NCBI RefSeq assembly: GCF_022808675.1
Contig: NZ_JAKZKV010000003.1
Span: forward strand, 62,001-126,000
Length of the DNA: 64,000 bases
Source: Parabacteroides sp. FAFU027
Lineage (GTDB): Bacteria > Bacteroidota > Bacteroidia > Bacteroidales > UBA7332
Reading direction: 5' to 3'
The translations under genes were made by a program, and so were the position numbers. The notes below the pieces were generated by a model, which saw nothing but the letters and a program-made list of their open reading frames with translations, searched no databases and was not told where the DNA came from. Below are positions 61,490-62,841 of the stretch, one piece after another. Each line of letters starts with the position of its first letter. Positions within the stretch are counted from its first letter, which is position 1.

Positions 61490-61972
61490 GCGTTGATTTC
61501 TCATGTAGCTTTTAGTGCATTTCTCTATTCTTATTCATTATTACATCATTGCTCATTCAATAGTCATTAAAGGGAAAAGAAAGGATAAAACCCTGATAAC
61601 ATCCTTATATTTCCCTGAAGAAACCCAGATAAAACCTATCTATAAGGATGGGGTTTATCTCCGGTTTATTGGGGTTATGCCTGGTATTCTATTGCATGAA
61701 TAACCTTAATTCCCCATGAATAGCTGCTGAATTCCCCTCGAATTACCACCGAAGAACGGAAATAATGAGTAATCCTTAAGCTATTTTTCTACCGCCTTTT
61801 CAGAGCAAAATAAAGTTACTTTATTTTCCGATTCACCCATTAAACATTTCTCCCTAAAAAAACTGAGATTCGGCATTAAATTATTCTCAAAACAAATACT
61901 CCTATTCCTCAGACAGTTAATAAAGATCGCTATCATAATAACTTAAATCAGCTACTATTTTTTCAAATCAGA
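61490..61972. other. Non-coding gap upstream of tRNA-Asp
   Basis: 480 bp with no credible gene (a 62-codon open frame at 61515-61703 lacks gene-like features). Short motifs recur at near helical spacing: GGTTTAT at 61652 and 61663, GGTTAT at 61673, and GAAT at 61698, 61718, 61729 and 61740. Confidence 0.4.
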
Positions 61973-62004
61973 TTTGCATAGTTAAAATATTGGCTCTATC
62001 TTTG
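61973..62004 (+). promoter_or_regulatory. Consensus promoter of tRNA-Asp copy 1
   Basis: TTTG (61973-61976), 20 nt, TATCTTTG (61997-62004). Perfect consensus; the mature tRNA starts 31 bp downstream. Confidence 0.92.
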
Positions 62005-62034
62005 CAACGCGATTGAGAAAAACGATTGCTCCAC

Positions 62035-62108
62035 GGTGTGGTAGTTCAGCTGGTTAGAATACCTGCCTGTCACGCAGGGGGTCGCGGGTTCGAGTCCCGT
62101 CCATACCG
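62035..62108 (+). tRNA. tRNA-Asp (GTC), copy 1
   Basis: 74 nt folding to a standard cloverleaf: acceptor GGTGTGG/CCATACC (one G-U pair), D arm around AGCTGGTTAGAA, anticodon stem CCTGC/GCAGG with loop CTGTCAC (anticodon GTC), T arm GCGGG-TTCGAGT-CCCGT region and discriminator G. CCA is not encoded. Confidence 0.97.
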
Positions 62109-62111
62109 CTA

Positions 62112-62145
62112 AAAGCAGCTTAAATTATTAAGCTGCTTTTTTTAT
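62112..62145 (+). terminator. Terminator of tRNA-Asp copy 1
   Basis: AAAGCAGCTTAA pairs with TTAAGCTGCTTT and a T run follows. It differs in sequence from the terminators after the pseudo-tRNA and copy 2. Confidence 0.9.
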
Positions 62146-62146
62146 T

Positions 62147-62410
62147 ATGCCATATTTTGTCTATATATTACAATCAACTGTAGATCAAAGCTATTATAAA
62201 GGATTTACAGAAGATATTGCTAAGCGACTGGAACAACACAATAATGGTGAAAGTCGCTATACTAGTCGAAAAATGCCTTGGCAATTGGTATATTTAGAGG
62301 AATTACCATCCAAACGCGAAGCTTTGATTCGTGAAAAACAGATAAAACGTTACAACTCCATTTATTTGCGCGAACTCATATCTAAGTATAAACAAAATTC
62401 AGATGGTTAG
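62147..62410 (+). CDS. GIY-YIG nuclease, small single-domain
   Basis: 87 residues. GIY-YIG core: YFVYILQS at residues 3-10 and YYKGFTED at 16-23, Arg27 in AKRLEQH and Glu58 in KREAL, the expected catalytic set, with the family tail IREKQIKRYN. The closest class is the UPF0213-like short nucleases, common in Bacteroidetes. It begins two bases after the terminator of tRNA-Asp copy 1, and its last codons (S-D-G-stop) are read from a D-arm-like sequence of a damaged tRNA-Asp, so it looks like cargo of a small element in a tRNA gene. Confidence 0.88.
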   Translation: MPYFVYILQSTVDQSYYKGFTEDIAKRLEQHNNGESRYTSRKMPWQLVYLEELPSKREALIREKQIKRYNSIYLRELISKYKQNSDG

Positions 62411-62466
62411 AAGACCGGCCTGTCATCTCGCCTGTGGCGAGACGGGTTCGAGTCCCGTCCATACCG
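62398..62466 (+). pseudogene. tRNA-Asp remnant lacking the 5' acceptor arm
   Basis: TTCAGaTGGTTAGAAgACC matches the D arm of the intact genes with small changes, GCCTGTCA matches the anticodon 5' side, and GGGTTCGAGTCCCGTCCATA then CCG matches the T arm and 3' acceptor exactly. The 5' acceptor half is missing and the anticodon 3' stem plus variable loop are replaced by TCTCGCC-TGT-GGCGAGA. It cannot form a cloverleaf. Its first 13 bases overlap the end of the GIY-YIG gene. Confidence 0.88.
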
Positions 62467-62467
62467 C

Positions 62468-62500
62468 AAAAAGGAAGTCGAAAGGCTTCCTTTTTTGTTT
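62468..62500 (+). terminator. Terminator after the tRNA-Asp remnant
   Basis: AAGGAAG-TCGAAAGG-CTTCCTT followed by T residues, practically identical to the terminator of copy 2, showing that the remnant kept the original tRNA 3' flank. Confidence 0.88.
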
Positions 62501-62561
62501 TCAATAACTCTTGATTTTGAAGTTTACAATACAATTATATTTCAACTTTGATAGGACATAA

Positions 62562-62593
62562 TTTGCATAGTTAAAATATTGGTTCTATCTTTG
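62562..62593 (+). promoter_or_regulatory. Consensus promoter of tRNA-Asp copy 2
   Basis: TTTG (62562-62565), 20 nt, TATCTTTG (62586-62593). Nearly identical to the promoter of copy 1 over about 65 bp. Confidence 0.92.
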
Positions 62594-62623
62594 CAACGCA
62601 ATTGAGAAACACAATTGCTCCAC

Positions 62624-62697
62624 GGTGTGGTAGTTCAGCTGGTTAGAATACCTGCCTGTCACGCAGGGGGTCGCGGGTTCGAGTCCCGTCCATACCG
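62624..62697 (+). tRNA. tRNA-Asp (GTC), copy 2
   Basis: Identical in all 74 positions to copy 1 as far as I can compare by eye, with the same GTC anticodon, no encoded CCA. Confidence 0.97.
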
Positions 62698-62698
62698 C

Positions 62699-62730
62699 AA
62701 AAAGGAAGTCGAAAGGCTTCCTTTTTTTGT
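62699..62730 (+). terminator. Terminator of tRNA-Asp copy 2
   Basis: AAGGAAG-TCGAAAGG-CTTCCTT followed by seven T residues, starting two bases after the tRNA. Confidence 0.92.
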
Positions 62731-62841
62731 TTCCGATAATTCTATTTACAACTTACTGAAAACAGGTTTTGAAGTGCGCTAAATCCCTTTGCGTTTTATC
62801 ATCTTCGCGTTCAATACAGACCAATAACACTCTCTTTCTGC

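Follow-up and report, generated by a model that had tools for sequence, protein, structure and literature searches.

The window, by which we mean the whole 64,000-nucleotide stretch of DNA analyzed here, carries at positions 62035-62727 an intact tRNA-Asp gene followed by a new terminator, a GIY-YIG nuclease gene, a partial tRNA-Asp, the native terminator and a second intact tRNA-Asp gene. This order had been described from the letters of the sequence alone in the original prediction, and its coordinates were confirmed by ARAGORN tRNA calls, the open reading frame (ORF), a Pfam match and repeat analysis. The features are as follows.

61972-62034, + strand: upstream portion of the direct repeat (97%) that copy 2 also has, presumed tRNA promoter region
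62035-62109, + strand: tRNA-Asp (gtc) copy 1, intact (ARAGORN)
62085-62442, + strand: 358-bp insertion relative to the empty site of genome G002, its ends movable within a 25-bp repeat (alignment blocks 61950-62084 and 62443-62698)
62085-62109, + strand: 25-bp direct repeat, left copy, covering the T-arm and the 3' strand of the acceptor; identical to 62443-62467
62111-62140, + strand: new terminator-like hairpin, then a T-run (inverted repeat with 13-nt arms, 100%)
62147-62410, + strand: GIY-YIG nuclease gene, 87 aa (ORF and Pfam match; purifying selection against close relatives)
62398-62425, + strand: incomplete tRNA-Asp copy within the insertion, running from the D-arm to the anticodon loop and containing the ORF stop codon; 25/28 identical to the host tRNA
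62426-62442, + strand: hairpin TCTCGCCTGTGGCGAGA replacing the anticodon 3' strand and variable loop, the insertion's final bases; one copy in the genome
62443-62467, + strand: right copy of the 25-bp direct repeat, which is the 3' end of the host tRNA-Asp (alignment)
62468-62495, + strand: native tRNA terminator, the same after copy 2 and with one change after the empty-site tRNA
62561-62623, + strand: second copy of the upstream repeat (direct repeat)
62624-62698, + strand: tRNA-Asp (gtc) copy 2, intact and unoccupied (ARAGORN)
62699-62726, + strand: native terminator of copy 2 (direct repeat)

The insertion and its empty site

The upstream region and the tRNA together form a 144-nt direct repeat (61972-62115 and 62561-62704, 97% identical), and the T-arm and terminator of the partial copy match those of copy 2 at 97% over 60 nt. 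The original prediction had taken the partial tRNA-Asp (62398-62467, 70 nt) for the displaced 3' end of the host gene. That view has to be revised, because the first 45 nt lie inside the insertion and are borne by the element, and host tRNA is shared only over the final 25 nt. The 28-nt D-arm/anticodon part differs from the host tRNA at three positions, the 25-base end is identical (25/25), and the TAG stop codon of the ORF is part of GGTTAG in the D-arm copy.

The empty site that the prediction had called for was found in a genome of the same genus, G002, in which a search with the window protein gave no match. Contig C401 of this genome aligns to the window to the left and right of the element, with 381 of 391 flank positions identical, and the 358 bases at 62085-62442 are present in the window only, which agrees with the ~360 bp estimated beforehand. 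The G002 assembly comprises 830 contigs and is 89% complete and 8% contaminated, with the empty site and both its flanks on one contig. The site already has two tandem tRNA-Asp units, as had been proposed for the state before insertion, and the tRNA-Asp at the filled site was left intact. Since the same 25 bases, CGGGTTCGAGTCCCGTCCATACCGC, stand at both ends of the insertion, the junction could fall anywhere within them, and this repeat makes entry inside the tRNA with subsequent rebuilding indistinguishable from recombination at the 25-bp 3' end without a break. Judged from the alignment, the difference between the window and G002 would be compatible with gain in the window or loss in G002. 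In G001, also of this genus, the tRNA-Asp seen lies far from both of its GIY-YIG genes.

A second filled/empty pair was found at a Thr-Tyr-Gly tRNA cluster, where a nuclease unit lies behind tRNA-Gly in G283 and none is present in G199; G099 matches the cluster region in pieces only. In both pairs the insertion is polymorphic at a defined site with an empty relative, as expected of a homing element. An assembly artefact was rejected on the grounds that many genomes show this architecture, two of them listed as a single contig (G196 and G215, loci L171 and L151), as do the two filled/empty pairs.

The GIY-YIG gene is the single ORF of at least 50 aa wholly within 62085-62442, and no integrase gene was found among ORFs of this length in the 358-bp insertion, both as foreseen. 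Its 87-residue product belongs to the GIY-YIG superfamily (Pfam PF01541, E 4e-17, 62.7 bits against a cut-off of 22.6). The protein is a bare catalytic domain with no added DNA-binding module, and its sequence would seem to offer little beyond that domain to account for specificity. The closest solved sequences are the UPF0213 proteins BH0048 (E 1.7e-9) and EF2693 (E 1.4e-4) and, weakly, the structure-specific SLX1 (E 0.0074), and searches of PHROGs and NCBIfam with the window protein returned no family at E 0.01. The ORF is under purifying selection against close relatives, dN being much lower than dS in five of the six comparisons made: three between different Asp-class elements (dN 0.22-0.28; dS 2.0, 2.7 or saturated) and two between copies within one array (0.08 vs 0.42, and 0.15 vs 0.75). 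The sixth, a recent pair in L006 (dN 0.015 vs dS 0.039), was too close to tell.

Searching the genome with the partial copy revealed at least four intact tRNA-Asp copies that are identical over the tRNA, one of them occupied. Further unoccupied tRNA-Asp genes lie on contigs C7 and C1, where the tRNA-Asp 3' end and the same kind of terminator are found behind tRNA-Lys genes and the stretch read contains no nuclease gene. The tRNA-Lys/tRNA-Asp clusters at these two loci (L214, L215) closely resemble each other, with tRNA-Lys in two tandem copies in one and three in the other. The genome holds three GIY-YIG matches above the family cut-off, the window gene included; the second is a small protein with no called tRNA in its 3.2-kb locus, and the third lies within a 611-aa open frame.

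Relatives beside tRNA genes and isotype-linked clades

The window protein matched 140 of 295 genomes of the order, and an all-phyla contig scan with it gave 61 loci in many phyla. Altogether 173 loci (order, all-phyla and a few others) were searched, yielding 215 GIY-YIG ORFs in 172 loci; four duplicate loci (L107, L109, L111, L117) were removed before counting. The order sample comprises 105 loci from the top of a similarity-ranked list, so that the rates below are not those of the superfamily, and tRNAs are as called by ARAGORN, some calls being altered copies (L070, L171).

Among the 130 order genes in these 105 loci, the nearest tRNA within 300 bp was on the same strand in 73 cases and on the opposite strand in none, with no tRNA for the remaining 57, and the 73 all-phyla genes divided in the same manner into 26, 0 and 47. 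When only order genes with at least 400 bp of sequence on both sides were counted, 63 of 105 had a tRNA on the same strand, none on the opposite strand, and 42 had none. A rough calculation puts a tRNA within 300 bp of a random gene in <1% of cases. Inspection by eye showed that several of the loci without a tRNA lie at a contig edge or have an uncallable tRNA copy (L097, L100, L106, L127, L150, L175 and L182), and that others are truly elsewhere. The expectation that the family would be found beside tRNA genes thus held for part of it, and placement of the nuclease away from any tRNA, which had been named as grounds for rejecting the idea, was encountered in another part; the fork nearest to the window protein, described below, is linked throughout its labelled rows to tRNA-Asp. 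Because many relatives lie away from called tRNAs, docking appears to be a trait of some clades only. Tandem units with a GIY-YIG gene also occur among the relatives.

The relation between nuclease and tRNA isotype was assessed on a FastTree tree of 169 proteins and 89 columns, 81 of whose 166 inner branches were open. Removal of short, long, interrupted and weak rows had left 192 rows, of which 169 were kept after array near-copies were dropped. Rows were labelled with the isotype of a tRNA ≤1,000 bp upstream or ≤60 bp downstream, four of them (L070, L171, L154, L158) by hand. The isotype changed 30 times among the 94 labelled rows, compared with a mean of 65 and a minimum of 58 in 200 shuffles. 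Clustering of Val, Asp, Arg, Asn, Met and Pro was never equalled in 500 shuffles, and Leu, Glu and Gly, with two rows each, gave no clustering signal. The mirror type (type A, described below) barely clustered, with 8 changes vs a shuffled mean of 9.7 and minimum of 8. Vertical descent in parts of the tree could partly explain the isotype clustering.

The window protein groups with those of tRNA-Asp units from Paludibacter, Sphingobacteriaceae and Chitinophagaceae, and in the 19-row fork closest to it (support 83) all 16 labelled rows are at tRNA-Asp, three rows being unlabelled. A Desulfobacteraceae protein at tRNA-Asp (L018) sits on a more distant branch. Four proteins neighbouring the element in the window had no match in the few kb around 15 tRNA-Asp units, so these units do not appear to be one inherited locus.

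Altered tRNA copies, hairpins and nuclease-less arrays

A 3' copy of the gene's own tRNA was found after the nuclease gene in 68 of 102 genes with a tRNA ≤1,000 bp upstream (59 loci), the copy being accepted when it scored above 20 tRNAs of other isotypes; in 34 of the 102 no such copy was detected by this rule. The part of the tRNA that is replaced comprised positions 39-50 in 10 of 15 tRNA-Asp rows. At tRNA-Val it was exactly the anticodon arm (29-45) in L105, L137 and L168 and near it in some others, and at tRNA-Asn positions 30-42 were exactly replaced by a hairpin in L092 and L145. Asn otherwise and the remaining isotypes vary, with several interruptions in the T-loop. ARAGORN labels altered tRNA-Val copies as tRNA-Leu, tRNA-Phe or unknown (L070, 7993-9734; L171), and arrays of altered copies can inflate and mislabel annotated tRNA counts.

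Segments preceding the shared end carried a hairpin stem of at least 6 in 43 of 68 cases vs 12 of 64 control segments farther on, and the hairpin was significant by shuffling (p 0.05) in 28 of 68 vs 6 of 64. Across 14 units of the tRNA-Asp class, the stem sequence changes and pairing is kept, with 25 two-sided cells vs 8.9 in shuffles (0/500) and a covariation score of 0.65 vs 0.18; these rows were selected for a stem of at least 5, which inflates pairing, three of the seven pairs are invariant, and two of five pairing measures (pairs with two-sided change, further pair types) were not above shuffles. The alignment came from 15 loci searched, of which L013, L078 and L085 gave nothing and L010 a false match, and used 14 of 20 hits after six near-copies were dropped.

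In some other genomes the hairpin is a dispersed palindrome. CCTGCCTGCCGGCAGGCAGG-type matches (≤1 mismatch) numbered 11 in G014, 11 in G222 and 7 in G199, and were present in 9 of 16 genomes, with 0 for the reversed control in all 16. The pattern TCCCGA..TCGGGA was above its control in 15 of 16 genomes; G196 showed the opposite (8 vs 19). The window hairpin itself was considered as a copy of a dispersed palindrome, which was unsupported (one genomic copy vs six for the reversed-pattern control).

These observations bear on an alternative in which the hairpin is a recognized end that mimics the anticodon arm, and a structure-selective nuclease joins the element to its site through folded single strands. 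Folded single-strand sites are used in integrons and IS200/IS605, which offer a loose parallel. The place of the hairpin as the final part of the insertion, its pairing despite sequence change in the 14 units, the exact replacements in three Val and two Asn rows and the weak match to SLX1 would all be consistent with such a mechanism. We nevertheless regard it as unlikely, given how the 14 rows were chosen, the two pairing measures that did not exceed shuffles, and the fact that a dispersed repeat, as the hairpin is in some genomes, would be palindromic anyway.

A mirror form, found mostly at tRNA-Arg, consists of a 5' tRNA copy, then the nuclease, then the intact tRNA, so that the nuclease gene separates the tRNA from the original upstream region, and in several cases the stop codon of the gene falls inside the tRNA. 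Mirror candidates were defined as genes with a downstream tRNA at ≤600 bp but no upstream tRNA within 80 bp, and 18 of the 20 have an upstream copy of the downstream tRNA that scores above controls (20 tRNAs of other isotypes). In 13 of these 18 the copy stops at position 21 or 22, and in 12 of them foreign sequence, mostly a CCTGCC-type palindrome, takes over there.

Tandem arrays of altered tRNA copies lacking a nuclease gene were found beside tRNA-Pro (L202, ~139 bp per unit), upstream of tRNA-Val in G001 (~106 bp per unit) and upstream of tRNA-Asp in L009 (110 bp per unit). G003, of the same family, has an array of ~124-bp units, each with a terminator and an altered tRNA-Asp copy, and the one sequence there that matches the window protein is broken by two stop codons. 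These nuclease-less arrays resemble satellites of the full unit, or what is left after its decay.

Such arrays of dead copies, and the tandem tRNA-Asp genes already present at the empty site, would also be expected if an ordinary tandem tRNA duplication had been followed by decay of one copy, with the GIY-YIG gene a passenger that landed in the spacer. This account appears quite improbable given that many genomes share this architecture, with nuclease clades linked to isotype, that the strand bias is 73 to 0, and that nuclease, partial tRNA and hairpin are carried by the insertion as one block. A domesticated host function, in which the nuclease and altered tRNA copies regulate tRNA supply or serve in defense, for example as decoys for tRNA-cutting systems, would accord with the purifying selection on the ORF and with the finding that SegB-driven tRNA amplification counters a tRNA-cutting defense in phage (PMC13096335). 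We judge it very improbable, as presence is patchy, nuclease-less and broken copies occur, and in the altered copies one half of the acceptor is missing or the anticodon arm or a loop has been replaced.

Other GIY-YIG genes of the wider family are found at sites of different kinds. Those of a sister clade are enclosed by perfect inverted repeats of 13-16 bp (L121, L130, L135 and L142) or of only 7 bp (L149). The RT-7 RNA family matches L142 and L130 with scores that fall short of its gathering cut-off; L142 lies in repeat-rich coding sequence, which we take to resemble a diversity-generating variable region, and L149 is set into a phage-integrase gene, whose portion ahead of it matches Pfam at 5.9e-34. 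Another clade has one tRNA label in ten rows, and several of its members are beside TTCGACTCCGCTCAG-type repeats. In seven of eight loci (L118, L134, L144, L155, L166, L183 and L185; not L157), ATGAAAGG stands just ahead of the gene start. In REP/RAYT systems, small palindromes are tied to a nuclease gene and also occur as copies without the gene, RAYTs being tyrosine transposases. The ATGAAAGG/TTCGACTCCGCTCAG clade is possibly a REP-like pairing with a GIY-YIG nuclease in place of the RAYT. The window-type elements likewise combine small palindromes with a nuclease gene and have gene-less copies, but differ in their tRNA context and in that the window protein is of the GIY-YIG type and not a tyrosine transposase. 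Given relatives at inverted repeats, at TTCGACTCCGCTCAG-type repeats and in an integrase gene, the wider family may consist of minimal elements with several kinds of docking site.

Known systems and a proposed mechanism

Genomic islands with a tyrosine recombinase integrate at tRNA 3' ends, leaving the tRNA whole and a short direct repeat at the far end. The window element shares with them the tRNA 3' end as docking site, the direct repeat (25/25) and the intact tRNA, and differs in that its sole protein is a GIY-YIG nuclease, with no integrase in 358 bp. UPF0213 single-domain proteins are like the window protein as its nearest solved sequences, and unlike it with respect to docking at a tRNA and to the gene's place inside a 358-bp insertion. 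Since the window tRNA is uninterrupted, no splicing of the group I intron kind is needed.

A close parallel is SegB, a free-standing GIY-YIG homing endonuclease of T-even phages. Its cleavage peaks fall inside tRNA genes without a preference for any isotype, a motif was detected at 23 of the 83 sites cut, and its activity is required, together with recombination functions, for tandem amplification of the tRNA plus segB (PMC13096335). Both systems place a GIY-YIG nuclease beside tRNA genes and form tandem tRNA-nuclease units (PMC13096335). Unlike the phage-borne SegB, the window element is chromosomal and encodes 87 aa, and its relatives have isotype-linked clades, a mirror form and nuclease-less arrays; window-type elements also combine the intact tRNA with an altered copy, often with a hairpin. 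The PHROGs search at E 0.01 gave no match to a phage family expected to hold SegB.

Searches for a vehicle gave no close relative: one scan of viral contigs with the window protein found five pattern stretches, none a relative, and the matches in plasmids (five) and phages (13, the best 48.5% over 65 aa) were all below 60% identity. The best phage relative is a GIY-YIG protein of a Rhizobium phage (MN988525.1, 107572-107832; L248), and none of the nine annotated features of its region is a tRNA. Among the listed matches from the open-licence literature, none describes GIY-YIG elements of this kind, chromosomal and docked at a tRNA of which they carry an altered copy. From phages, GIY-YIG nucleases next to tRNAs are already known (PMC13096335).

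Taken together, these data make it probable that the insertion is a minimal, nuclease-driven selfish DNA element docked at a tRNA gene, SegB-like but chromosomal, that leaves the tRNA whole. For this reading speak the presence and absence of the unit between relatives, docking on one strand, isotype-linked clades, altered copies, and tandem and nuclease-less units; against it stand the genes without a nearby tRNA (57 of 130 and 47 of 73), the 34 of 102 without an own-tRNA copy, and the lack of a vehicle. We propose that the GIY-YIG nuclease would cut its cognate tRNA gene, and that recombination over a short shared tRNA segment, 25 bp here, would then insert the unit or amplify it in tandem. 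As only cells with one working tRNA would survive, the functional copy would be kept intact and the spare copy altered. The hairpin at the docking junction would most likely deprive the dispensable copy of both its nuclease site and its repeat homology, such that the element would be neither recut there nor easily deleted. Its effect may lie in destruction of the site in the spare copy or in a split repeat that makes deletion rarer, or the hairpin may be a recognized end.

The element looks like a homing endonuclease element at tRNA genes. However, the four identical intact tRNA copies argue against the simple form of such an element: with at least four identical copies and one occupied, a nuclease active on that sequence should attack its own host. 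Were this tRNA-Asp sequence its target, the nuclease would have to be silent, weak or active only under certain conditions.

A bolder version of the selfish element, which we hold to be doubtful, would be an ultra-small element class that targets the folded tRNA gene. Here the bare GIY-YIG domain would recognize the hairpin beside the shared tRNA arm in both element and target and integrate there, giving a natural cleave-and-rescue system with nuclease-less satellites. Loss of such an element would be costly, since a deletion running through the altered portion of the copy would leave the tRNA dead.

If the favored reading, a selfish element docked at a tRNA gene, is true, the unit would rank as a mobile element of very small size, with 358 bp and a single protein of 87 aa. 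It would be accompanied by satellites that lack the nuclease, and an essential RNA gene would serve it as a safe harbor with no need of an integrase. Targeting of tRNAs in the manner of SegB would then occur on bacterial chromosomes as well as in phages, arrays of dead tRNA copies that the tRNA finder miscalls would be explained, and the family would provide a natural set of small nucleases, each linked to particular tRNA genes.
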